A stretch of 64,000 nucleotides of DNA from an uncultured Thiohalocapsa sp. (GTDB lineage: Bacteria; Pseudomonadota; Gammaproteobacteria; Chromatiales; Chromatiaceae): NCBI RefSeq assembly GCF_913063425.1, contig NZ_CAJXYK010000002.1, forward strand, positions 1-64,000, read 5' to 3'. Both the position numbers and the translations under genes were made by a program. Positions within the stretch are counted from its first letter, which is position 1. Each line of letters begins with the position of its first letter. The notes beneath the pieces were generated by a model that saw only the letters and a list, made by a program, of their open reading frames with translations, was not told the origin of the DNA and did no database searches. Shown in pieces: positions 29,595-41,623 of the stretch.

Positions 29595-29757
29595 GACGGC
29601 ATCGCTGGGATCTCAGGCCGTGGACGCCGCCCACTGGCGTGGCGCCACCCGCCCTGCGGCAGGCCCCGTGCAGGGCGTCTCGCCGCGCGCCACGGCCGCC
29701 GAGCCCCCGGCAACCTCCCAATGCAGACAGCCCGGAACCAGCCAGAGGAGCACCGCC

Positions 29758-32700
29758 ATGGCCGCCGCAATGCGCGTCGAGAATCCCACGCCCGAACAGC
29801 CCGACCAGGCCGCAGCGGCGGCGACGGCACAAGATCCCGCACAGCAGCCGGCGACCACCGCGGATCTTGGCGCCCATCAGCCGGGCCGGGTGCAGGTAAT
29901 CCGCCGCAACGGCAAGGTCACGCACTTCGACCCGAACAAGATCAAGGTCGCCATGACCAAGGCCTTCCTCGCCGTGGAAGGCGGCAGCGCAGCGGCCTCC
30001 TCGCGCATTCACGATCGGGTGGAGAGCCTGACCGAGCAGGTGGTGAGCGCGCTCACCCGCCGGCTGCCGGGCGGCGGCACCGTGCACATCGAGGACATCC
30101 AGGACCAGGTGGAGCTGGCGCTGATGCGCGCCGGCGAGCACAAAGTTGCCCGCGACTATGTGCTCTACCGCGACGCCCGCGCCCGCGAGCGCGCCGAGAA
30201 GAGCGCCGCCCAGACCGCTGCAGCAGGCGCTGCCGCAGACAAGGGCATCCACGTCACCCTCGCCGACGGCACGACCCGCCCGCTGGACACCGGGCGCCTG
30301 GCGCGGCTGGTGGAAGAAGCCGCCCGCGGGCTCGACGGCGTGGATGCCGAGGCCATCCTCAAAGACAGCCTGCGCAACCTCTTCGACGGCGTGAAGGAGG
30401 CCGATGTCGGCCAGGCGCTGGTGATGTCCGCCCGCGCCATGATCGAGCGCGAGCCCGCCTACAGCCAGGCGGCGGCGCGGCTGTTGCTGGACATCATGCG
30501 TCGCGAGGCGCTCGGGTTTCTGGATATGGCCGTGGGCGTCGAGACCCAGGCGGACATGGGCGAGCGCTATGCCGATTACTTCGCCGCCTACGTGCAGCGC
30601 GCCGGCGACCTGGAGCTGCTGGACAAGCAGCTGGCGCGCTTCGATCTCAAGCGACTTGGCGCGGCGCTGAAGCCGGAGCGGGACCTCCAGTTCACCTACC
30701 TCGGGCTCCAGACCCTCTACGACCGCTACTTCATCCACACCGACCGCGGCATCCGCTTCGAGCTGCCGCAGGCGTTTTTCATGCGCGTGGCCATGGGGCT
30801 GGCCATCAACGAGATCGACCGCGAGGAGCGCGCCATCGAGTTCTACGAGCTGCTGTCCAGCTTCGATTTCATGAGCAGCACACCGACGCTGTTCAACTCC
30901 GGCACGCTGCGGCCGCAGCTCAGCTCCTGCTATCTCACCACGGTGCCGGACGACCTCGACGGCATCTACGGCGCCGTCAAGGACAACGCGCTGCTCAGCA
31001 AATTCGCCGGCGGCCTCGGCAACGACTGGACCCGGGTGCGCGGCATGGGCGCCCACATCAAGGGCACCAACGGCAAGTCCCAGGGTGTCGTGCCCTTCCT
31101 GAAGGTGGCCAACGATACGGCGGTGGCGGTGAACCAGTGCTTCGCGCCGGACACCACGGTGTTCACCGCCGACGGCCCCAAGCCCATCGCCGAGGTCAAG
31201 CGCGGCGACCTGGTGCTGGGACAGCGCGGGCGCTGGCGCGAGGTCACCGAGCACTTCGTCTACGACCAGAAGGACGCGCCCATGGTGCGGGTGCGGGTCA
31301 AGCACGCCGTGAACGACCTCCGGGTCACCGCCGGGCATCCGTTCTGGGCCATCAAGGGCGTGCCACAGGAGCAATCCATCGAGCGCACGCTGAAGCAGAT
31401 CGAGCACGGCCGCTTCAAGCCGGACTGGGTTGAGGCCGGCGAGCTTGGCCGCGGCGACTATGTGGCGCAGGTGATCCCGGGCGAAGTCGTTCCGGTGGAT
31501 GGCTTCACCGAGGCCGACGCCCGCTTCTACGGCATCCTGCTGGGCGACGGCCATCTGACCCGCGGCTATGAATTCGGCATCTCCGGCAACCCATCTGTCG
31601 ACGGCGGCCACCTGGACTTCGTGCGCGCCTACCTCACCGAGCGCGGTATCCACTTCTGGGAAACCGGACGGGGTGATTCCTACATCCAGGTCAAATGGTC
31701 CGTCGGCAAGGGCCTCGCGCGCTGCGCCACCACCGGCCAGTGGGTCGGGCAGGACCAGGCCGCCCTGCCCTTCACGGAAGACGACCTCTACGACGCCGCC
31801 CGCAACAAGCGCATCGCCCGGCGCTTCAGCCACCTACCGCACAACCAGGCGCTGGCGCTGGTCCAGGGTCTGCTGGAGACCGATGGCGGCGTGAGCAGAG
31901 GCAAGGAGATCTACTTCACCAGCACCTCCACGCCGCTGGCCGAGGGCCTGCGCTACCAGCTGTTGCGCTTAGGCGTTCCCTGCGCCGGCCAGTACCGCGA
32001 GCGCGACAACGCCCACGTCGGCAGCCGCTCGGACGGCAGCGTCGTCTCCTTCACCGGCACTACCCGGGCCTTTGATCTTCGCATCCCCGCAGTGCCGCTC
32101 ATCGCGGACCTGGTCGGCGTGCCGGGGCTCACCAAGCAGAACTGGTTCCGACTCGGCAACTGGGTCTTCACCCGTATCAAGGCCGTCGAGGCCATCGCAC
32201 CGCTGACCGAGGTGCACGACCTGAAGGTGGAGGGCGACGAGAGCTACATGACCGCCGCCGCGCTGGTGCACAACGGCGGCAAGCGCAAGGGCGCCGTCTG
32301 CGCCTATCTGGAAACCTGGCACGTGGACATCGAGGAGTTCCTGGACCTGCGCAAGAACACCGGCGACGACCGCCGCCGCTGCCACGACATGAACACCGCC
32401 AACTGGGTGCCGGACCTGTTCATGAAGCGCGTGGCCGAGGACGCCGAATGGTCCCTGTTCAGTCCGGACGAGACCCCGGACCTGCACGACCTCATGGGCC
32501 AGGACTTCGAGCGCGCCTACACCGCCTATGAGGAGCGCGGGCAGCGCGGCGACCTGCGCGTCTACAAGCGCATCAAGGCCGTGGACCTGTGGCGCAAGAT
32601 GCTGGCCATGCTGTTCGAGACCGGCCACCCCTGGATCACCTTCAAGGACCCCTGCAACCTGCGCTACACCAACCAGCACGTGGGCCAGGTGCACAGCTCC

Positions 32701-33852
32701 AACCTCTGCACCGAGATCACGCTGCACACCAACGACCAGGAGATCGCCGTCTGCAACCTCGGCTCCGTCAACCTGGCCAACCACGTGGGCAGCAACGGCC
32801 TCGATACCGCCAAGCTCAAGAAGACCGTCGGCACCGCCATGCGCATGCTCGACAACGTCATCGACTACAACTTCTACAACGTCCCGCAGGCACGCAAGTC
32901 CAACCTGCGCCACCGGCCCGTGGGGCTCGGCATCATGGGCTTCCAGGACGCCCTCTATAAGCTCGGCATCGCCTACGCCAGCCACGAGGCCGTGCAGTTC
33001 GCCGACCAGAGCATGGAGATCCTGAGCTGGCACGCCATCAGCGCCAGCACGGACCTTGCCGAGGAACGCGGGCGCTACCAGAGCTTCAGCGGCAGCCTCT
33101 GGAGCCAGGGCATCCTCCCCATCGACAGCGTCCGGCTGCTGGCGGAAGGCCGCGGCGGCTACCTGGAAATGGACACCGGCACCACGCTGGACTGGGAGGC
33201 GCTGCGCGAGCGGGTGACCACCGTCGGCATGCGCAACAGCAACTGCATGGCCATCGCCCCCACCGCCACCATCAGCAACATCTGCGGCGTCAGCCAGTCC
33301 ATCGAGCCGACCTATCAGAACTTGTTCGTCAAATCCAACCTCTCCGGCGAGTTCACCGTGGTCAACCCCTACCTGGTGGCGGACCTGAAGGAGCGCGGCC
33401 TCTGGGACAGCGTTATGGTCAACGACCTCAAGTACTACGACGGCAGCGTCCAGCAGATCGACCGCATTCCCGATGACCTGAAGCAGACCTACGCCACGGC
33501 GTTCGAGATCGACCCCCGCTGGCTGGTGGAGGCCGGCAGCCGCCGCCAGAAATGGCTCGACCAGGCCCAGAGCCTGAACCTCTACATGAGCGAGCCCAGC
33601 GGCAAAAAGCTCGACAACCTGTACAAGCTCGCCTGGGTGCGCGGCCTGAAGACCACCTATTACCTGCGCTCCATGGGCGCCACCCACGTCGAGAAATCCA
33701 CCATGGACGACGCCAGCAAGGCTAACCGCCTGTCCGCGGTCGGCGGCAACTACGTCTCCCTCGGCAAGGGCAAGTCCAACGGCAAAGGCAACGGCGCCGC
33801 GGAGCCAGCCGCCTGCTCGGTGCTCGATCCGGAGTGTGATAGCTGTCAGTGA
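29758..33852 (+). CDS. nrdA: Ribonucleotide reductase class Ia, large subunit, with an intein
   Basis: 1364 residues as a precursor; removal of the intein (461-839) leaves 985 residues, close to Pseudomonas-type NrdA. Start 29758 has AGAGGAG at 29743-29749. Order: two ATP-cone domains (about 40-140, RRNGKVTHFDPNKI; and about 160-250), the ten-stranded barrel with redox Cys in QLSSCYLTTVPD, then after the intein GGKRKGAVCAYLETWH, the active-site SNLCTEITLHT, second redox Cys VCNLGSVNLA, and a C-terminal tail CSVLDPECDSCQ carrying the shuttle cysteines. It reduces ribonucleotides together with NrdB (40205), which lies 6.35 kb downstream. Regulated by the NrdR boxes upstream and allosterically through the ATP cones. 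Confidence 0.95.
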   Translation: MAAAMRVENPTPEQPDQAAAAATAQDPAQQPATTADLGAHQPGRVQVIRRNGKVTHFDPNKIKVAMTKAFLAVEGGSAAASSRIHDRVESLTEQVVSALTRRLPGGGTVHIEDIQDQVELALMRAGEHKVARDYVLYRDARARERAEKSAAQTAAAGAAADKGIHVTLADGTTRPLDTGRLARLVEEAARGLDGVDAEAILKDSLRNLFDGVKEADVGQALVMSARAMIEREPAYSQAAARLLLDIMRREALGFLDMAVGVETQADMGERYADYFAAYVQRAGDLELLDKQLARFDLKRLGAALKPERDLQFTYLGLQTLYDRYFIHTDRGIRFELPQAFFMRVAMGLAINEIDREERAIEFYELLSSFDFMSSTPTLFNSGTLRPQLSSCYLTTVPDDLDGIYGAVKDNALLSKFAGGLGNDWTRVRGMGAHIKGTNGKSQGVVPFLKVANDTAVAVNQCFAPDTTVFTADGPKPIAEVKRGDLVLGQRGRWREVTEHFVYDQKDAPMVRVRVKHAVNDLRVTAGHPFWAIKGVPQEQSIERTLKQIEHGRFKPDWVEAGELGRGDYVAQVIPGEVVPVDGFTEADARFYGILLGDGHLTRGYEFGISGNPSVDGGHLDFVRAYLTERGIHFWETGRGDSYIQVKWSVGKGLARCATTGQWVGQDQAALPFTEDDLYDAARNKRIARRFSHLPHNQALALVQGLLETDGGVSRGKEIYFTSTSTPLAEGLRYQLLRLGVPCAGQYRERDNAHVGSRSDGSVVSFTGTTRAFDLRIPAVPLIADLVGVPGLTKQNWFRLGNWVFTRIKAVEAIAPLTEVHDLKVEGDESYMTAAALVHNGGKRKGAVCAYLETWHVDIEEFLDLRKNTGDDRRRCHDMNTANWVPDLFMKRVAEDAEWSLFSPDETPDLHDLMGQDFERAYTAYEERGQRGDLRVYKRIKAVDLWRKMLAMLFETGHPWITFKDPCNLRYTNQHVGQVHSSNLCTEITLHTNDQEIAVCNLGSVNLANHVGSNGLDTAKLKKTVGTAMRMLDNVIDYNFYNVPQARKSNLRHRPVGLGIMGFQDALYKLGIAYASHEAVQFADQSMEILSWHAISASTDLAEERGRYQSFSGSLWSQGILPIDSVRLLAEGRGGYLEMDTGTTLDWEALRERVTTVGMRNSNCMAIAPTATISNICGVSQSIEPTYQNLFVKSNLSGEFTVVNPYLVADLKERGLWDSVMVNDLKYYDGSVQQIDRIPDDLKQTYATAFEIDPRWLVEAGSRRQKWLDQAQSLNLYMSEPSGKKLDNLYKLAWVRGLKTTYYLRSMGATHVEKSTMDDASKANRLSAVGGNYVSLGKGKSNGKGNGAAEPAACSVLDPECDSCQ
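31138..32274 (+). other. Intein with LAGLIDADG homing endonuclease inside NrdA
   Basis: 379 residues (461-839 of the precursor). It starts with Cys (CFAPDTTVFTADGPKPIAEV, block A), has block B RVTAGHPFWA, two dodecapeptide endonuclease motifs FYGILLGDGHLT and ALVQGLLETDGGV, block F VHDLKVEGDESYMT and ends ALVHN. Only these borders leave the uninterrupted family sequence AVAVNQ-GGKRKGAV, so the +1 residue is Gly rather than the Cys, Ser or Thr that normal splicing uses. The insertion point lies in a highly conserved part of the catalytic barrel, as expected for a homing site. Confidence 0.93.
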
Positions 33853-33975
33853 GGAGGCAGGTACGGAGTACGCGGGCGCAGGCTTGACTGGCAGCCCCAC
33901 CTGGGGGCGCCGACTTCCAGTCGGCGACTCCCGCGCCACCGACAAACACCGCATCCACACCAAACGACGACCCCA

Positions 33976-34122
33976 ATGGACACCAACGCACCGACCTACA
34001 CCGAGCCGCTCGGCGACCTGGAGACCGTCCCGGACTTCCTCCCGCCGCCTGAGGCCCTCATCCCAAAGGCGCCGGAGACCGATCCACGACCGACCACACC
34101 ACCCGATGCCCCCAATGCTTGA
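33976..34122 (+). CDS. Small ORF, possible remnant of a CopG-type antitoxin
   Basis: 48 residues: MDTNAPTYTEPLGDLETVPD, then FLPPPEALIPKAPETDPRP... The phrase GDLExVPDFLPxPExL is the usual start of a CopG-like antitoxin group (I infer this from memory of the family), but the DNA-binding part that should follow is missing. Its stop overlaps the start of the HicB gene (34115). No clear ribosome site. Probably a decayed or fused fragment. Confidence 0.35.
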   Translation: MDTNAPTYTEPLGDLETVPDFLPPPEALIPKAPETDPRPTTPPDAPNA

Positions 34123-34396
34123 GTACAAAGCCTATCTCGGAACCCTAGAACCAGAAGACGGCAGCTTCGTCGGCAGGGCCATCGGTCTGCGCGACGTGAT
34201 CACCTTCGACGGCGAGAGCTACGCCGAAGTCCAGCAGGCTTTCCGCGACAGCGTCGACGACTACCTCGCCTTCTGCGCAGAGCCCGGTGAGCCTTGCGCA
34301 CGAAAGGCGCGCCCGACCAAATGGCTGTGGCATGCGCCAATAATAGGGTTCAATTTCGCGTGTTTCGTAGTTGCTCCTTGCTCTTGCAGCACCTGA
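34115..34396 (+). CDS. HicB-type antitoxin, C-terminally altered
   Basis: 93 residues. The first 60, MLEYKAYLGTLEPEDGSFVG, then RAIGLRDVITFDGESYAEVQ and QAFRDSVDDYLAFCAEPGEP, are the HicB partial RNase H-like fold. After that the usual C-terminal HTH/RHH part is replaced by an unrelated stretch (KWLWHAPIIGFNFACFVV) encoded by bases at 34350-34372 that recur at about 35180-35202 in a repeat. A HicA toxin gene is not present on either side. The gene is probably truncated by rearrangement at the repeat. Confidence 0.6.
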   Translation: MLEYKAYLGTLEPEDGSFVGRAIGLRDVITFDGESYAEVQQAFRDSVDDYLAFCAEPGEPCARKARPTKWLWHAPIIGFNFACFVVAPCSCST

Positions 34397-34458
34397 AAAA
34401 GGAGGAAACAAGGGCTCAGACCGAATATTCCGATTAAGCAAGTTTAGTGGAGTCGAAT

Positions 34459-34725
34459 ATGCCGACGATCTCCATGTTCTACGGCATCATCATACGCATG
34501 TACTACGCACCGGCGGAGCACCCACCGCCGCACTTCCATGCATACTACGGCGAGCACAAGGCGCGCATCGACATCAAGACCTGCGAGATCATAGACGGCG
34601 ACTTGCCGAAGAAGCAGACCAAACTCGTGCTGGCGTGGGCAGAGTTGCACCAGGACGATCTGCTCGCAGACTGGGCGCTCGTCATGAACGGCGAGGAACC
34701 CCACAAGATTCAGCCGCTCGTCTGA
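34459..34725 (+). CDS. DUF4160 protein
   Basis: 88 residues: MPTISMFYGIIIRMYYAPAE, then HPPPHFHAYYGEHKARIDIK. The ISxFYGIxIxMYYxxxEHxPPHFHAxYG pattern is the DUF4160 signature. It is followed 14 bp later by a DUF2442 gene, the usual genomic pairing for this family; the pairing and small size suggest a toxin-antitoxin-like module, but the function is unknown. Start 34459 has GGAG at 34449-34452; a GTG four codons upstream is an alternative. Confidence 0.85.
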   Translation: MPTISMFYGIIIRMYYAPAEHPPPHFHAYYGEHKARIDIKTCEIIDGDLPKKQTKLVLAWAELHQDDLLADWALVMNGEEPHKIQPLV

Positions 34726-34739
34726 GCGGGAGATGGTCG

Positions 34740-34976
34740 ATGTATCCTGCGGTGACAAGCGTAGACGTCAACGAAGACTTTACCCTCTCGCTCGGCTTTT
34801 CCACCGGGGCTAGCGGGACCCTGGACATGAAGCCGTACCTGGATTTCGGCGTCTTTCGGAGATTGCGCGACCTCGACGCCTTTCGTACCGCGCATGTTGC
34901 CTTCGATACCGTTGCATGGGAGGGCGGTATCGATTTGGACCCGGAGTTCGTCTATCGAAAGTGTAAGTGCGCCTAG
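34740..34976 (+). CDS. DUF2442 protein
   Basis: 78 residues: MYPAVTSVDVNEDFTLSLGF...GTLDMKPYLDFGVFRRLRDL...VAFDTVAWEGGIDLDPEFVY, the DUF2442 pattern (Wxx.DLxPExLY at the end). Ribosome site GCGGGAG at 34726-34732. It forms a likely two-gene unit with the DUF4160 gene just upstream. Confidence 0.82.
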   Translation: MYPAVTSVDVNEDFTLSLGFSTGASGTLDMKPYLDFGVFRRLRDLDAFRTAHVAFDTVAWEGGIDLDPEFVYRKCKCA

Positions 34977-34986
34977 AGCAGCAAGG

Positions 34987-35042
34987 GGGCAATCGGGGAC
35001 AGACCACCTTTTTCGGGCAATCGGGGACAGACCACCTTTTTC
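34987..35042. repeat. Two perfect 28-bp tandem repeats
   Basis: The unit begins GGGCAATCGGGGACAG and ends ACCACCTTTTTC; copies are 34987-35014 and 35015-35042. The GGGGACAGACCAC core resembles REP-type sequences linked to IS200-like (RAYT) transposases, though none is present here. It directly follows the DUF2442 gene. Confidence 0.8.
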
Positions 35043-35105
35043 CAACACGAGTGACCGTCCGGCCGGCAGTTTGGGCGTCGTTATCTCAGTGATGCCGGGC
35101 GGACG

Positions 35106-35205
35106 GAATATTTTGGAAATACGAAATGCACGAAATACGCGAAAAGGACGGCTCCGGCAAGGCTACGCGATTTTTCGCGCCTTTCGCGTGTTTCGTAGTT
35201 TGAAC
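35106..35205. repeat. Imperfect inverted repeat and flanking duplicated segments
   Basis: ACGAAATGCACGAAATACGC...GAAAAGG on the left faces TTTTTCGCGCCTTTCGCG and TGTTTCGTAGTTTG on the right, able to form a long imperfect hairpin. The right arm sequence TTTCGCGTGTTTCGTAGTT recurs at 34353-34371 inside the altered HicB end. Downstream, two similar 34-bp segments (about 35223-35256 and 35263-35297, sharing TTTxCCTCxCATGAA... CGCCCAG) and a doubled AGACACCGCAAGCA (35393-35430) fill the gap to 35437; apart from a doubtful 51-residue frame at 35240 I see no gene. Confidence 0.55.
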
Positions 35206-35436
35206 AAACGATGCGGTCAAGTCTTGCCGTTTGCCTCGCATGAACGATAGCGCCCAGCAGAACCTGCCTTTTACCTCACATGAATGGGAACGCCCAGTGA
35301 GTCTGCCAACCCGACGCCAAACTCCGGCGCAAAGTAGCAACGGGGCGGTCGAAGCCATGACCAAGGCCATCGTGGTCGACCAAGCAACAACATAGACACC
35401 GCAAGCAACAACACAGACACCGCAAGCACCAGCGCC

Positions 35437-35802
35437 ATGCCCAAAGACTTCAACGACGACCCGCACCTCGACGTCTGCCAGAACATCGAAGTCGGCCTGC
35501 GTGAGCAGTACGACCGCTTACCGGGCCTCATTGACACCCAGTGCATGTTCGCCCTCGACAGCGCCAAGGTCGCAATCAAACAGCAGTTCGGCTACGCCAG
35601 GAACGAACGCGTCAACGTCCTTCCGGGTACCGAAGGCATCATCGACTGGTGCGTCGCCATCGGCCAGGCGCGTATCGGCGACGCGAGCAACCTGACCCTC
35701 AAGGAGGACGTGGCCTGTCTGGAGAAGATCAAAAGGTCAGTGAAACGGCATTCCGAGGCGGGGCCGCGCGGCTACTATGCGTTCATTCGGCACTATGTCT
35801 GA
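35437..35802 (+). CDS. Conserved-looking small protein of unknown function
   Basis: 121 residues, MPKDFNDDPHLDVCQNIEVG...LKEDVACLEKIKRSVKRHSE...GPRGYYAFIRHYV. Composition and codon use look like a real gene; the ending GYYxFIRxYV is distinctive. I do not recognise a named family. It stands at the head of a run with the DUF6398 and pRiA4b genes and may belong to the same accessory block. Confidence 0.6.
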   Translation: MPKDFNDDPHLDVCQNIEVGLREQYDRLPGLIDTQCMFALDSAKVAIKQQFGYARNERVNVLPGTEGIIDWCVAIGQARIGDASNLTLKEDVACLEKIKRSVKRHSEAGPRGYYAFIRHYV

Positions 35803-35902
35803 AGGTCTCGGCGAAGCGAGCAAGCAGGGAAATTTCGGTTCGCCCGAAACAGCGCGACCGCACTGAAAGCACGTCCAGTGTCTACCAGCCAGGCAGCCAG
35901 CG

Positions 35903-36502
35903 ATGACCCAACACTCCGTCAAAGTCCCCAAGTCCATGCAGGACCGCTTTGCCGCCATCACGGAGCTGACCGATGCCATCTGCGCAGAGCATCTGAACAA
36001 CGAGTACGCGGACCTGATCCGGGCCGCAGCAGCAGCGATGAGCCGCAAGCGCCCATCGCCCCTTGCGAAAGGTGCGATCCGTAGCTGGGCGGCGGCGCTG
36101 ACGCACGCGGTCGGCATGACCAACTTTCTGCAGGATCGGGATCAGACGCCGCATCTGTCGGCCTCGGCACTGTACTCAGCCTTCGGCGTGAGCCAGAGCA
36201 ACACTTTGGCCAAGTCCAAGCAGATTCGGGATGCGCTCGGCATGACACCGATGCACCCGGACTGGTGCCTGCCGTCCATGCTCGCCGACAACCCGATGGT
36301 GTGGATGTTGCAGTGGGATGGATTCATGGTCGATGCACGGCAGTTGCCCAGGGAGCAACAGGAGCAGTTGGTACAGGCCGGGGTGATCCCGTTCGTGCAT
36401 CCCGATGCGCAGGACGCGGCGGATCTTGCCGTTGCAGCGCGACGAGTAGCGGAGAGATTTGGAGCAGACCACGATGCGCGATTTACCGGACTCGCTCGCT
36501 GA
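35903..36502 (+). CDS. DUF6398-like protein
   Basis: 199 residues. Opening VPKSMQDRFAAITELTDAIC, then AEHLNNEYADLIRAAAAAMSR and KRPSPLAKGAIRSWAAALTH fits the DUF6398 group, which is often encoded beside pRiA4b ORF-3 proteins. The middle (LSASALYSAFGVSQSNTLAK, then SKQIRDALGM) looks like a helix-turn-helix segment, so a nucleic-acid-related role is conceivable. A pRiA4b gene follows 74 bp downstream. Confidence 0.65.
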   Translation: MTQHSVKVPKSMQDRFAAITELTDAICAEHLNNEYADLIRAAAAAMSRKRPSPLAKGAIRSWAAALTHAVGMTNFLQDRDQTPHLSASALYSAFGVSQSNTLAKSKQIRDALGMTPMHPDWCLPSMLADNPMVWMLQWDGFMVDARQLPREQQEQLVQAGVIPFVHPDAQDAADLAVAARRVAERFGADHDARFTGLAR

Positions 36503-36576
36503 TCGACACCGCCCCCTTGGCGTCGCTGCTGCCGCATTGCACCCGCTCGCTTGAGCAACCACCGAGACCCGTAGCC

Positions 36577-37155
36577 ATGCCCGCAGAACGACCAAAGCAG
36601 ATCTATCAGCTGAAGATCACGCTCAAGGGCGCGAAGCCGCCCATCTGGCGGCGTGTGCTGCTGCCGAGCGACCTGACACTGGACGTACTGCACGAGGTCA
36701 TCCAGATCGCCATGGGCTGGACGAGCTCGCATCTGCATCAGTTCGTGGCAGGCGGGCGTTTTTATGGTGTCCCGGATGACGACTTCGACTTCGAGGTTCA
36801 GGACGAGGCAGAGGTCAGGCTTGGAGATGTGCTGCGCAAAGAGAAGGAGGCGATGGTCTACGAGTACGACTTCGGCGACGGCTGGGAGCATCAGGTTCTG
36901 CTGGAGAAGCTGCTGCCCTTCGATGACGCCCAAGCCCTGCCGATCTGCGTCAAGGGCAGGCGCGCCTGCCCGCCTGAGGATTGCGGCGGCATCTATGGGT
37001 ATGCGGATCTCCTGAGAATCCTGGCCGACCCGGCTGATCCTCAGCACCAGGACGTTCTCGAGTGGGTCGGAGGGCCGCTCGATCCGGAGGCGTTCGACAT
37101 CGACGACACCAACCTGGCGCTTGCCGCCCTGGGCGTGACTGGGCAGCGCCGATGA
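36577..37155 (+). CDS. Plasmid pRiA4b ORF-3 family protein
   Basis: 192 residues with the family pattern: YQLKITLKGAKPPIWRRVLL, LTLDVLHEVIQIAMGWTSSH, LHQFVAGGRFYG, then MVYEYDFGDGWEHQVLLEKL and ACPPEDCGGIYGYADLL. The family is widespread on plasmids and genomic islands; its function is unknown. It lies in the accessory block between nrdA and nrdB. Confidence 0.9.
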   Translation: MPAERPKQIYQLKITLKGAKPPIWRRVLLPSDLTLDVLHEVIQIAMGWTSSHLHQFVAGGRFYGVPDDDFDFEVQDEAEVRLGDVLRKEKEAMVYEYDFGDGWEHQVLLEKLLPFDDAQALPICVKGRRACPPEDCGGIYGYADLLRILADPADPQHQDVLEWVGGPLDPEAFDIDDTNLALAALGVTGQRR

Positions 37156-37434
37156 GGCGCAGCCTAACCCGGCCGAGCTTACCCGAGTGCTGCCGAGGGT
37201 CGGGTTACGTTGTCGCTGACCCGACTTACGAGGCGTCACGGGGCGGTCGATACAGTCGCGTTTCGGGCCGAGCGGCCGCCACTGGAGACGCCGGGGGTTC
37301 TGGCGCTGCCGACTCCGCCTCAGTCACGAGTCACCTGGGCTGCCACATCCACTGGCCCCAACAGCACGGTCTTGAGCAATGCCGATCCCACACGCCGCAA
37401 TCCAAGCTCACCAGCCAGGCAAGGCCGAATCCAC

Positions 37435-37857
37435 ATGATCCAGATCCCCCAATACCTTGAAGTCTACATCGCGACGCTCAATGCGGAGCTGGATCGGTTC
37501 TGGTCCCGCTTCAACGTCTACGTCATCATCCAGGTGGTGGCGGTGTTGGCGCTGATGCTGGCGTTCGATAAGGTCCAGATCCACCCGGATACGGCGCGGG
37601 CCGCCAACATGGTGCTGTTTCTCTGGTCGCTGACCGGCGCGGTGATCGTCTGGCGGTCCATCGAGATCCAGCAGCGGCTGGTGACGGCCATCGTGGCGGC
37701 GGAGACGAGCCTGCCGGATGACGTGGGGCTGTTTCGCGAGGCGCTTCAGGCAACCAATCCGGCGCAGCTGTTCATCCTGCGGGCGTGCTTTTCGTTCTCG
37801 CTGGTGTGCTCGGTGTTCTGGGGCGGAATGATTTTTCTCGGACCCTATCATTCATAG
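37435..37857 (+). CDS. Small membrane protein of unknown function
   Basis: 140 residues with three hydrophobic helices (about 28-45 VIIQVVAVLALMLAF, 57-71 MVLFLWSLTGAVIVW and 114-135 FSFSLVCSVFWGGMIFL). The polar N-terminus (YLEVYIATLNAELDRFWSRF) may be cytoplasmic. No family recognised. It is followed by a DUF1622 gene in the same direction. Confidence 0.6.
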   Translation: MIQIPQYLEVYIATLNAELDRFWSRFNVYVIIQVVAVLALMLAFDKVQIHPDTARAANMVLFLWSLTGAVIVWRSIEIQQRLVTAIVAAETSLPDDVGLFREALQATNPAQLFILRACFSFSLVCSVFWGGMIFLGPYHS

Positions 37858-37899
37858 AGCGGCATCACAGCGGATGGACATGCGCGGCAGGTTTCTCTT

Positions 37900-38250
37900 A
37901 TGAACGAGCTCATCAAGCCTCTTGCGGAGATCATTGCCGTGTCGGTGGAAGGCGTGGGCATCGCCATCATCGGCCTGGTGAGCTTCTTGGTGCTGGGACT
38001 CTTCGTCGTGCAGTTGCTGCGGCGGCGGGACGTACCGGCGACCTATGGCCAGGTCCGACAGCTTCTGGGCCGGGGCATTTTGCTGGGGCTGGAGTTCCTG
38101 GTGGCGGCGGACATCATCCACACGGTGGCGGTGGAGCTGACCTTCGAGACCGTCGGCGTGCTGGCGATCATCGTGCTGATCCGGACCTTCCTCAGCTTCA
38201 CGCTGGAGCTGGAATTGACCGGCCGCTGGCCCTGGCAAAAGCAGGGGTGA
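37900..38250 (+). CDS. DUF1622 membrane protein
   Basis: 116 residues with three transmembrane helices and the DUF1622 pattern: GVGIAIIGLVSFLVLGLFVV, then RQLLGRGILLGLEFLVAADI, IHTVAVELTFETVGVLAIIV and RTFLSFTLELELTGRWPW. Inner-membrane protein of unknown function. The next gene starts 5 bp downstream. Confidence 0.88.
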   Translation: MNELIKPLAEIIAVSVEGVGIAIIGLVSFLVLGLFVVQLLRRRDVPATYGQVRQLLGRGILLGLEFLVAADIIHTVAVELTFETVGVLAIIVLIRTFLSFTLELELTGRWPWQKQG

Positions 38251-38255
38251 ATACC

Positions 38256-39272
38256 ATGACAGACCATCAGCATCGAAGGGGCGCGCGACAGCCGCTGGCG
38301 GGCGTGATCGCCCTCATGGCGCTCGCGGCGGGCGTTGCTGAGGCCGCGAGCTTCGACTGCACCAAGGCATCGACACGCATCGAAACGCTCATTTGCGCCG
38401 ATGCGCAGCTGAGCGGTCTCGACGCCGAGCTGGCCGACCTCTATCGCGCAGCCCGCCGGAGCACCGACGACCCCGAGCGGCTCACCTCGGCGCAACGGGC
38501 CTGGCTCAAGCGGCGGGACCGCTGCACAGACAGCGACTGCGTCGCAGATCTGTACCGCCAGCGCATCGCCGAGCTCGGCGGCGACGCCGGCGGCGACGGC
38601 GATACGCCCATGGGCGCGCCGCGCACCGAGCGCTCGGCCGAGGCGGTGCGCATCACCCAGCAGGGCGCGCAGTTCGAGATCGAGGCCGCCTATCCGCGAC
38701 TTGACGACGGCGCGGCAGCGGCCGCCGCCGAGCGGGTGCTGGCGGATGTCGTCGCCGCGGAGATCGAGGCCTTCCGCGACATGTACCGGGAGCTGCTCGC
38801 CGCCGGGGCCGGTCATCAGGGGCCGGCCTGGCAGCTCGCCATCGACTATGACCAGGTCTTCACCGCGCCCCGGTTCTGGGCCGTCGGCCTGCGCAGCTAC
38901 AGCTACACCGGCGGTGCCCACGGCGGCACTCATCACCTGCCGGTGGTGATCCGCCGCGATACAGGCGCCCAAGTGCCGGTGGAGGGCCTGTTCCGCGCCG
39001 GCAGCAACTGGCGGGCACCGGTGGCCGACTACTGCTACAACACCCTGGCCGCCCGCGAGCCCTTCAGCCCAGGCGACGACTGGCTGCGCGACGGGACGGC
39101 CCCCACGCCGGAGAACTACCGCAAGCTGCTGCCGCTCGCCGATGGCCTGCGGGTGATCTTCGAGCAGTACCAGGTGGGCCCCTACGCCATCGGTATGCAT
39201 GAGGTGGCCGTGCCCTATGCCGAGCTCGACGGCCTGCTGAATCCAGCGCTGTTCCCAGGCGGGCGGCCCTGA
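38256..39272 (+). CDS. Secreted protein with LprI-like and DUF3298-like domains
   Basis: 338 residues. Signal peptide about 1-31 (GVIALMALAAGVAEAAS). Residues about 32-105 carry the LprI-type cysteine pattern (FDCTKASTRIETLICADAQL...LKRRDRCTDSDCVADLYRQR), found in lysozyme-inhibitor-like periplasmic proteins. The C-terminal part (about 130-338) looks like a DUF3298/RsiV-type domain, including FWAVGLRSYSYTGGAHGGTH and then QYQVGPYAIGMHEVAVPYAE. RsiV-type domains bind lysozyme in Gram-positive bacteria, so both halves point to the cell wall or lysozyme; that role is inferred here. Confidence 0.75.
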   Translation: MTDHQHRRGARQPLAGVIALMALAAGVAEAASFDCTKASTRIETLICADAQLSGLDAELADLYRAARRSTDDPERLTSAQRAWLKRRDRCTDSDCVADLYRQRIAELGGDAGGDGDTPMGAPRTERSAEAVRITQQGAQFEIEAAYPRLDDGAAAAAAERVLADVVAAEIEAFRDMYRELLAAGAGHQGPAWQLAIDYDQVFTAPRFWAVGLRSYSYTGGAHGGTHHLPVVIRRDTGAQVPVEGLFRAGSNWRAPVADYCYNTLAAREPFSPGDDWLRDGTAPTPENYRKLLPLADGLRVIFEQYQVGPYAIGMHEVAVPYAELDGLLNPALFPGGRP

Positions 39273-39292
39273 CACATGCAACGGAGCCCCAG

Positions 39293-39988
39293 ATGCCGTC
39301 CATCGACATCCTGCCCTGGTGGGACTGGCCCGACTTCGCCCGCGTTGCGCTGGTGCTTGCGGCGGTGGCGGCGGCGGGTGCGCTCGGCACCCTGCTGCTG
39401 CGCGCCGCGAAGCGCCCTGCTGGGCCACCGGTGCGCCCGCCGGGCCGCCCCCGGCTGCCCAGGCATATGCGCCCGCCGCGTGAGGGGCAATCCATGAGCG
39501 GTGGACCGGCGGAGCACGAGGAGTTCCCCACCCGCGCGCCGGACCCGGTGCTGCGGCTGCTGCATCGCATCCTGCGGCTTGCCACCTATGTGCTGGCCAT
39601 CGCCATGGTGGTGGTCATCCTGGAGGGTGTGGTGAGTGTCATCCACACCCTGTACATGAGCATGTCCCGGCCGCCCTATTTCATGGTGCCGAATATCGTG
39701 CAGACCTTCGGCGTCTTCCTGGCGGTGCTCATCGCCTACGAGATCTTCGCCAACATCACCCTCTACCTGCGCACCGATGTCTTCCCGGTGAAGCTGGTGG
39801 TGGCCACGGCGGTGATGGCCATCGCCCGGAAGGTCATCATCCTGGACATGGAGGACTACACGGCCCTGGATCTGGTGGGGATCGGCGCCATTGTGCTGGC
39901 GCTCGGCATCGCCTATTGGCTCATTTCCCGCGTGGATGCAGACAGCGGCACGGCACGCTGGCGCAGCGACAGAGAAGAGGACTCATGA
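39293..39988 (+). CDS. psiE: PsiE-family phosphate-starvation-inducible membrane protein
   Basis: 231 residues from ATG 39293 (GGAG upstream); an alternative start is ATG 39494 behind GAGGGG. The C-terminal 150 residues have four helices and the PsiE pattern: LRLATYVLAIAMVVVILEGV, VFLAVLIAYEIFANITLYLR, FPVKLVVATAVMAIARKVII and LVGIGAIVLALGIAYWLI. The extra N-terminal helix (VALVLAAVAAAGALGTLLL) is unusual and may reflect the earlier start or a fusion. Function unknown beyond phosphate-starvation induction in E. coli. Confidence 0.8.
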   Translation: MPSIDILPWWDWPDFARVALVLAAVAAAGALGTLLLRAAKRPAGPPVRPPGRPRLPRHMRPPREGQSMSGGPAEHEEFPTRAPDPVLRLLHRILRLATYVLAIAMVVVILEGVVSVIHTLYMSMSRPPYFMVPNIVQTFGVFLAVLIAYEIFANITLYLRTDVFPVKLVVATAVMAIARKVIILDMEDYTALDLVGIGAIVLALGIAYWLISRVDADSGTARWRSDREEDS

Positions 39989-40204
39989 GCGGGCGGATCA
40001 GAATGCAGCCTCACGGCCGGCGGCGCCTGCGGGAGACGGCGGGCGCCCCGGCTCTGACCCTTACCCTGAACCTGAACCTGACCTTGTCCATACCCTTGGC
40101 GCTGGCGGACGATGCAGCCCTGCCGGACCAGGGTCAGGACAAGGAAGCGACCCGGCACAGCGCCACAACCACGACCCACAACACACCGACCCGGAGGAGA
40201 TCCG

Positions 40205-41623
40205 ATGCTGAACTGGGACGACCCCCTCGCCAACGTCACCACCCGCCCGCGCACCGCGCCCCGGCCGCTGCCGGCGGGTGAGGCCGCCTTCGGCGACAGC
40301 GCCGCGGATGCCGCCGGCGATGACGACTTCGAGCTCGGCAGCGCCGCCGAGCGGCAGACCGAGACCGCGCCCGAGACCCCAACGGCACCCGCCGCCCGCC
40401 CGGGCCACGGCCTGCTGGGTAACGACGCGCTCATGCGCACCGCAGGCGCCGCGCCCGTGGTGGACCCGAACCCGCTGCCCGCCCAGCGCTCTCTGCTGAA
40501 CGAGGCGCCGGCAGCGCAGCCCGGCAGCGCGCCGCCGGCGGGCGCCGACTACGACACCAGCGCCCAGGGCGGCGCCACCGGGTTGGAGACCCTGGAGATG
40601 GGCGCCGGGCGCCTGCGCGTTGACGACAAGCGCATCATCAACTGCAACGCGGACCTGAACCAGCTGGTGCCCTTCAAGTACGACTGGGCCTGGCAGAAGT
40701 ACCTCGACGGCTGCGCCAACCACTGGATGCCGCAGGAAATCAACATGAACGCGGACATCGCGCTGTGGAAGGACCCGCAGGGCCTCACCGAGGACGAGCG
40801 CACCATCATCAAGCGCAACCTGGGCTTCTTCTCCACCGCCGACTCCCTGGTGGCGAACAACCTGGTGCTGGCCGTCTACCGCCACATCACCAACCCCGAG
40901 TGCCGCCAGTACCTGCTGCGCCAGGCCTTCGAGGAGGCCCTGCACACCCACGCCTATCAGTACGTCGTCGAGAGCCTGGGCCTCGACGAGGGCGAGATCT
41001 TCAACATGTACCGGGAGGTGCCGGCGGTGGCGCGCAAGGCGGAGTGGGCCCTGCCCTACACCCAGTACCTCGCGGACCCGCACTTCCACACCGGCACGCC
41101 CGAGAACGACCAGCGCCTGCTGCGGGAGCTGGTGGCCTTCTACGTGATCTTCGAAGGCATCTTCTTCTACGTCGGCTTCGTGCAGGTGCTCTCCATGGGC
41201 CGGCGCAACAAGATGACCGGCACCGCCGAGCAGTTCCAGTACATCCTGCGCGATGAGTCCATGCACATGAACTTCGGCATCGATGTCATCAACCAGATCA
41301 AGATCGAGAACCCGCACCTGTGGACCGAGGCGTTCAAACAGGAGCTGGTGACCATGATCCGTGACGCCGTGGCGCTGGAGGCCCAGTACGCCCACGAGAC
41401 CATGCCCCGCGGCGTGCTCGGCCTGAACGCCCCCATGTTCGAGGAGTACCTCCAGTTCATCGCCAACCGCCGCTGCGCGCAGATCGGCCTGCCGGAGCAG
41501 TACCCCGGGGTCACCAACCCCTTCCCCTGGATGTCCGAGGTGCTGGACCTGAAGAAGGAGAAGAACTTCTTCGAGACCCGGGTCACCGAGTACCAGACGG
41601 GCGGGGCCTTAAGCTGGGATTGA
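40205..41623 (+). CDS. nrdB: Ribonucleotide reductase class Ia, small subunit
   Basis: 472 residues; ribosome site GGAGGAG just before ATG 40205. The first 125 residues are a disordered Ala/Pro-rich extension that is longer than in Pseudomonas-type NrdB. The catalytic core is intact: [14 protein letters not shown] (Asp ligand), [15 protein letters not shown] (Glu and His ligands and the radical Tyr four residues after His, so class Ia rather than the Phe-type Ic), EGIFFYVGF and [11 protein letters not shown]. The C-terminus [18 protein letters not shown] docks to NrdA. It is encoded 6.35 kb from nrdA, with accessory genes between them. Confidence 0.95.

Follow-up and report, generated by a model that had tools for sequence, protein, structure and literature searches.

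How can an intein be removed from an essential enzyme when the residue that follows it is glycine? This question is raised by a stretch of DNA from an uncultured Thiohalocapsa sp. (contig NZ_CAJXYK010000002.1, positions 1 to 64,000; "the window" below means this whole stretch of 64,000 nucleotides), in which the gene of NrdA, the large subunit of class I ribonucleotide reductase (RNR), is interrupted at positions 31138-32274. The interrupting element was confirmed to be an intein with a LAGLIDADG homing endonuclease, which splits NrdA exactly between Gln and Gly-Gly. An initial annotation had considered standard (class 1) splicing to be impossible as written with Gly at the +1 position, and this was judged right, since Gly offers no side chain for the class 1 step in which a branched (thio)ester is formed at +1. 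According to the data given below the intein probably uses a chemical route of splicing that is less common, and it appears rather probable that this mobile, homing-endonuclease-bearing element excises from NrdA by splicing without a side-chain nucleophile at +1.

The Intein and Its Junctions

The host gene and the parts of the insert, all on the plus strand, are listed here, where counts out of 76 refer to the window together with 75 intact relatives.

29620-33852, +: open reading frame of the NrdA precursor, 1410 amino acids, without internal stop
29758-31137, +: N-extein of NrdA (ATP cones, all-alpha domain, start of the barrel), ending in ...AVAVNQ, with the frame open upstream to GTG 29620
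31135-31137, +: Gln -1, equivalent to human Gln288 and E. coli Gln294 of RNR (loop 2)
31138-32274, +: intein of 379 residues, a Hint splicing domain with an inserted LAGLIDADG homing endonuclease (profiles, predicted fold)
31138-31140, +: Cys1, the N-terminal nucleophile, invariant (76/76)
31327-31338, +: block B motif T-A-G-H (His67 76/76, Thr64 75/76)
31528-31554, +: LAGLIDADG-type motif 1, YGILLGDGH
31861-31893, +: LAGLIDADG-type motif 2, VQGLLETDGGV
32212-32253, +: block F, VHDLKVEGDESYMT (Asp361, Leu362, Tyr370 and Thr372 invariant, 76/76)
32269-32274, +: terminal His378-Asn379 (Asn 76/76; His 73/76, Arg in 2, Ser in 1)
32275-32280, +: Gly +1 and Gly +2 of the C-extein, where class 1 inteins have Cys, Ser or Thr
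32275-33849, +: C-extein of NrdA (barrel domain to the C-terminal CDSCQ), with the stop codon at 33850-33852
40112-41623, +: nrdB, small subunit of the same class I RNR (PF00268 match at 40658-41521)

With slashes marking the intein ends, the precursor reads ...NDTAVAVNQ / CFAPDTTVFT...YMTAAALVHN / GGKRKGAVCAYLETW... To place these ends, every cut up to 15 residues away from either end was tested against the empty allele found in a genome of the same genus (L128), a frame of 990 amino acids which is 93.75% identical over 240 residues around the insertion site. The cut from C1 to N379 was the single best, with 1 mismatch in 60 residues against the empty allele, and the next two cuts gave 2 mismatches; shifted cuts were worse, and among the best eight none puts Cys, Ser or Thr at +1. 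Different bases adjoin the two insert ends, so the boundary is unique at the DNA level too. Thus the cut proposed initially, which leaves Cys1 and a His-Asn end on the intein and Gly at +1, is borne out by the enumeration with no stop in frame, and the escape by a revised junction that had been left open is closed. The second escape, a sequencing error at 32275-32277 that would hide Cys, Ser or Thr, is excluded as well, because +1 is Gly in all 76 intact copies and all four Gly codons are used (GGC 53, GGT 12, GGA 7, and GGG 4). The predicted mature NrdA of about 985 residues agrees with a start at ATG 29758, and it would have 1031 residues if counted from the first GTG, at 29620.

In profile searches the extein flanks matched the class I large subunit model NF005544 with 1710 bits, and the LAGLIDADG_3 match of the insert exceeded its curated cut-off. 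Among the Hint-type Pfam models Intein_splicing was the best for the insert, yet it stayed under its cut-off (26.7 versus 35.8 bits), as did intein_Nterm (20.9 versus 24.5 bits), Hint_2, and Hom_end_hint. The insert was also modelled by AlphaFold2 together with 20 flanking residues at either end; the model, built from 44 sequences, had a mean pLDDT of 84.3 and a pTM of 0.83, its flanks being of low confidence and uninformative on junction geometry; the predicted insert fold matched TliVMA (Foldseek E 1.9e-18), PI-SceI, PhoVMA, and then I-DmoI.

Conservation, Selection, and Spread

A scan of genome contigs yielded at least 79 loci, each of which was required to contain one of six exact peptides of the window intein, so that the set is biased to close relatives. 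The full intein frame is intact in 75 of 79 loci; the match of L075 ends at residue 208, where the locus itself ends. The suggestion that relatives may share the +1 Gly proved correct, as Gly was tabulated throughout at the NQ/GG site: it was found in all 77 loci whose match reaches the C-junction (L072 and L075 fall short), and among the 76 intact copies Gln at -1, Gly at +1, and Gly at +2 are all invariant. The same is true of Cys1, His67, Asp361, Leu362, Tyr370, Thr372, Leu376, and Asn379, with Thr64 kept in 75 and His378 in 73 copies.

By record titles the hosts include Chromatiaceae, Thiothrix and its kin, Azotobacter, Burkholderiales, five actinomycetes, Verrucomicrobiota, Blastocatellia, and Omnitrophota; the actinomycete loci are not marked as metagenome-assembled genomes (MAGs), while the Verrucomicrobiota, Blastocatellia, and Omnitrophota copies come from MAG contigs, which may be misplaced. 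When 398 genomes were sampled evenly over the phylum, a full match turned up in the window's genome only and 13 weak partial hits elsewhere; the element is thus rare and of scattered occurrence. Across 116 genomes sampled from the family, where the counts are of gaps in over-cut-off profile matches alone, NrdA is split at this site in 19 (own genome included) and uninterrupted over nearly the whole profile in 52; 4 shorter matches also run through the site, and 3 are split elsewhere. Another genome of the same genus (G081) also carries the intein, and the copy of Thiohalocapsa halophila is L002. In L025 a short deletion lies just before the intein (FLKVVMAVNQ versus FLKVANDTAVAVNQ), and the genome of L025 has another full-length PF02867 match.

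A viral or plasmid source found little support: the viral scan gave two weak partial relatives, the plasmid scan three partial matches, and the phage scan 45 matches, all below 60% identity, with annotations of RNR, methylase or helicase among the 20 matches listed. No relative with a canonical +1 residue was identified, where the +1 counts leave out these viral, phage, and plasmid matches and the 13 weak phylum hits.

The ratio of nonsynonymous to synonymous change (dN/dS, Nei-Gojobori method) of the intein was 0.125-0.212 in the 7 pairs that involve the window, out of the forty closest pairs listed, and 0.089-0.206 in the 17 pairs with extein dS below 0.35. Over 929 filter-passing pairs, which are non-independent and include distant pairs with synonymous change near saturation, the medians were 0.27 for the extein, 0.29 for the intein, 0.33 for the splicing domain, and 0.24 for the endonuclease. 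On these estimates the intein and the exteins are both under purifying selection.

In trees made by a quick method the Blastocatellia copy (L028, a MAG contig) has an end branch of 0.44 for the intein and, in the extein tree, a long one of 5.22. With 14 other copies it shares 56-62% identity in the intein and just 46-52% in the exteins, which indicates horizontal transfer between distant NrdA types. The actinomycete copies form one clade in both trees. With its LAGLIDADG domain and its horizontal spread the element has both marks of a mobile homing-endonuclease intein, as judged from sequence.

The Insertion Site and Other Reductases of the Hosts

The sequence NQGG stands at the site in all 31 uninterrupted NrdA loci examined, namely, L082-L111 (the 30 best-scoring uninterrupted NrdA of the family sample) and the same-genus L128, and also in L132, whose NrdA is interrupted elsewhere. 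Maturation is therefore expected to join NQ to GG, and the peptide spanning the ligated NQ-GGK junction would read ...NDTAVAVNQGGK. Because this host site offers no Cys, Ser or Thr, the intein has had to live with Gly. In the alignment to human RNR1 chains the insertion point falls between the equivalents of Gln288 and Gly289. Human Gln288 corresponds to E. coli Gln294, within loop 2 (PMC5819950), and loop 2 (residues 292-301) connects the specificity site with the active site, its Arg298Ala mutant being mostly or completely inactive (PMC4728125). The equivalent of Arg298 sits at +4 from the intein junction.

Such a position bears directly on the second of three options in the initial annotation, that cleavage occurs at both ends only and the two NrdA pieces function together unjoined. 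This has some support in print: cleavage dominates in type A bacterial intein-like (BIL) domains (PMC4031507), a functional RNR in pieces through homing endonuclease insertion stands in a reference title in PMC2814812, and a split yet functional nrdA is mentioned in PMC3653736. The break, however, would separate the specificity Gln from the activity-required Arg within loop 2, and neither Cys1 nor Asn379 has been given up in any of the 75 intact relatives. The invariance of Gln at -1 and of Gly at +1 and +2 does not count against unjoined pieces, since host constraint alone would keep these residues. Altogether this arrangement is considered unlikely.

A further reading takes the precursor to be expressed unspliced, one of the options of the initial annotation, or to be a dead allele, in cells that depend on another RNR. 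The window's genome, which is 99% complete, has one NrdA only, so a hidden normal duplicate is ruled out; the NrdB match in the window is complete (40658-41521), no class II enzyme was found over the cut-off of the profile search in this genome, and there is one class III NrdD. The RNR survey was extended to 23 genomes, those of the 79 loci with titles not marked as MAG. NrdD was present in 11 of them, and PF02867 matches outside the intein-bearing NrdA gene also in 11, being confined to this gene in the other 12, so that a substitute enzyme is at hand for many hosts. No other RNR was found in 4 of the 23 (L029 Thiolinea disciformis, L038 Thiothrix eikelboomii, L042 Thiofilum flexile, and L050 Thiothrix lacustris), a missed gene being possible; since the intein-bearing NrdA is the only RNR found there, its precursor must yield a working enzyme. 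Given also that the insert breaks allosteric loop 2, that the intein frame is intact in nearly all loci, and that intein and exteins are under purifying selection, an unspliced or dead precursor is very improbable.

Proposed Splicing without a Nucleophile at +1

The remaining option, a different route of splicing, is the best supported of the three and has published precedent in A-type BIL domains. In terms of the standard scheme, the residues for the thioester at Cys1 and for Asn cyclization are all present, and those for steps 2 and 4 are absent. Splicing of the NrdA intein may then proceed as follows. Cys1 would attack the Gln-Cys bond with formation of a thioester; Asn379, aided by His378, would cyclize and free the C-extein with an N-terminal Gly; and, with the pieces held by the intein fold, the unhindered Gly amine would attack the thioester directly, so that Gln and Gly are joined without a branched ester. 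The glycine amine is the least hindered of all residues, which would suit it for a direct attack on the thioester. We infer splicing itself, this order of steps, and the cutting of DNA by the endonuclease.

A further possible actor is an internal side chain, such as the invariant Thr372 of block F/G or another conserved Ser or Thr, which would take the ester and pass it to the freed Gly in a class-3-like detour. Thr372 is invariant, as are the adjacent Tyr370 and Leu376, and in the canonical second intein of L042 this position is Ala (FIANGLVVHN/C; alignment by eye). On the other side, full conservation of Cys1 and the block B His, with the block B Thr kept in 75 of 76 copies, means that the ordinary thioester is available, and the place of the class 3 block F Cys, that of residue 361, is Asp in all 76 copies. 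An internal nucleophile is thus quite unlikely, and the probability left over from the routes named here belongs to routes not listed.

Direct attack by the Gly amine has its model in the A-type BIL domains, for which thioester formation, Asn cyclization, and amine attack without a +1 nucleophile were proposed (PMC4031507), and further precedent for the chemistry is given by the title of Aranko 2013, cited in PMC7664689. Besides the possible part of an internal side chain, several facts speak against it. The same BIL domains mostly cleave, and one of them required Tyr+1 to be changed to Cys (PMC4031507); according to PMC7765530 the A-type is unable to ligate, contrary to a legend in PMC5874633, by which it can splice completely. 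The relatives were gathered by likeness to the window intein, which favours copies of the same kind. Three of the 79 loci (L072, L074, and L078) are frameshifted inside the intein, where the frameshift of L074 may be a sequence error, since the second RNR of this genome (Arenimonas, chromosome) is also split over two frames. The penultimate His is replaced in three Chromatiaceae, by Ser in L009 and by Arg in L011 and L012; these are natural variants bearing on Asn cyclization.

The fuller claim, in which a widespread mobile lineage without a +1 nucleophile would supply the only RNR of free-living bacteria through efficient direct attack of the Gly amine, is tentative, and we put it a little below an even chance. 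If true, this route would add a fourth class to the known mechanisms of inteins and make Gly sites accessible to protein splicing.

Other Inteins and Breaks in Reductase Genes

The other RNR inteins read in this analysis carry Cys or Thr at +1, so Gly goes with this site and not with the hosts. Cys was found in the second NrdA intein of L042 (4612-5715) and L073 (4576-5679), which in both lies between ...AV and CNLGSVNLPA, and in NrdJ of L149, and Thr was found in NrdD of the window's genome. In L042 the NrdA that holds this second intein is the sole RNR found in the genome.

Both RNRs of the window's genome are interrupted: its NrdD (L131 1980-5009, contig C45 of G000) contains an intein-like insert with Thr at +1 and a Gly-Asn end, its junctions, judged by eye where the profile match breaks off, being GCQ/CVDAET...FITGN/TPFTN. 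The glycyl-radical end of this NrdD lies in a separate open reading frame of 64 amino acids (L131 5121-5315, same contig) after the stops of the main frame, while the profile listing assigns one frame of 1112 amino acids to all three NrdD segments of the genome; in 8 of the 11 NrdD genomes the last NRDD segment was listed with another open-frame length than the main match. It would be unusual for a glycyl-radical domain to stand alone.

A second insertion site in nrdA is present in L132 (G031), which is empty at the NQ/GG site and split between ...HSSNLC and TEITLH; G049 and G073 have the same NrdA profile break as G031, near position 295. In the four-genome genus of the Azotobacter vinelandii CA copy (L026) the other three NrdA (L142-L144) are uninterrupted by profile, with NQGG seen in L142 and L143, whereas A. 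chroococcum NCIMB 8003 has an nrdA intein (PMC4465626), and a strain difference in its presence within the genus is possible. The NrdJ matches of this genus (L147-L149) are long enough for an insert, and the one in L149 ends in HN/C. In the window itself about 6 kb (33853-40111) lie between nrdA and nrdB and hold small genes, including those of DUF4160 (34447-34725) and DUF6398 (35903-36502) proteins.

Comparison with Known Inteins and BIL Domains

The NrdA intein shares with class 1 inteins Cys1 (76/76), the block B Thr-x-x-His, and the terminal Asn, and lacks their Cys, Ser or Thr at +1. Class 2 inteins have no Cys or Ser at position 1 and a nucleophile at +1, the reverse of Cys1 and Gly +1 found here. 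Class 3 inteins have neither Cys nor Ser at position 1 and employ a catalytic Cys at position 4 of block F; here Cys1 is present in 76 of 76 copies, and Asp361, at the block F place, is likewise invariant. With A-type BIL domains the intein has in common the C-terminal His-Asn (His 73/76, Asn 76/76) and the absence of a +1 nucleophile (Gly 76/76), and it differs from them in location, since it occupies loop 2 of NrdA, where all 31 empty sites read NQGG. The intein is therefore outside class 1 by its +1 residue, outside classes 2 and 3 by the presence of Cys1, and outside the BIL domains by location. A profile search of the PDB was weak and level between the two kinds, with E 0.0019 for BIL 2lwy and E 0.002 for the gp41-1 intein.

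Among published inteins the closest is the Azotobacter nrdA intein (A. chroococcum Achr_15980 and A. vinelandii Avin_33290), very probably of the same family and site; it is described as LAGLIDADG type at amino acids 442-800, its +1 residue being unremarked in the available part of that report (PMC4465626). The A. vinelandii CA copy is 63% identical to the window intein over all 379 residues and reads NQ/C...HN/GG. The old InBase list reportedly had an entry "Avin RIR1 BIL", a name that the literature search did not return; if so, the lack of the nucleophile had already been noticed in a single species. An RNR intein of Methylococcus is also known (PMC517821). The search for inteins with Gly at +1 returned no paper, and within the parts of the texts examined none discusses the +1 Gly of the NrdA intein. 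As far as this literature extends, the conservation across phyla, the invariance, and the argument from sole RNRs are new, the Azotobacter copy being already in print.

A mobile intein lineage of several phyla, which precedes Gly in every readable copy and lies within the control loop of an essential enzyme, offers a simple bench system for the role of the +1 residue and possibly a ligation tool that leaves Gln-Gly-Gly. One may even speculate that splicing could gate the supply of deoxynucleoside triphosphates. If splicing is efficient, the +1 nucleophile would be dispensable in a natural intein, whereas BIL domains without it mostly cleave.

The NrdA intein resembles the class 1 inteins PI-SceI, TliVMA, and PhoVMA in its fold, its Cys1 and terminal Asn, the His of block B, the LAGLIDADG insert, and the conserved site; it differs from them at +1, Gly standing in place of Cys, Ser or Thr. 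Inteins insert before C, S or T, and BIL domains have no preference for conserved sites (PMC2814812). A-type BIL domains such as 2lwy are like the NrdA intein in the C-terminal His-Asn and the lack of a +1 nucleophile but lie in variable, non-conserved regions (PMC2814812, PMC7765530, PMC5874633), whereas the NrdA intein, with its homing endonuclease, sits in a loop that is conserved in an essential enzyme. It would function as an A-type BIL domain does, in the structural frame and with the mobility of a homing intein.
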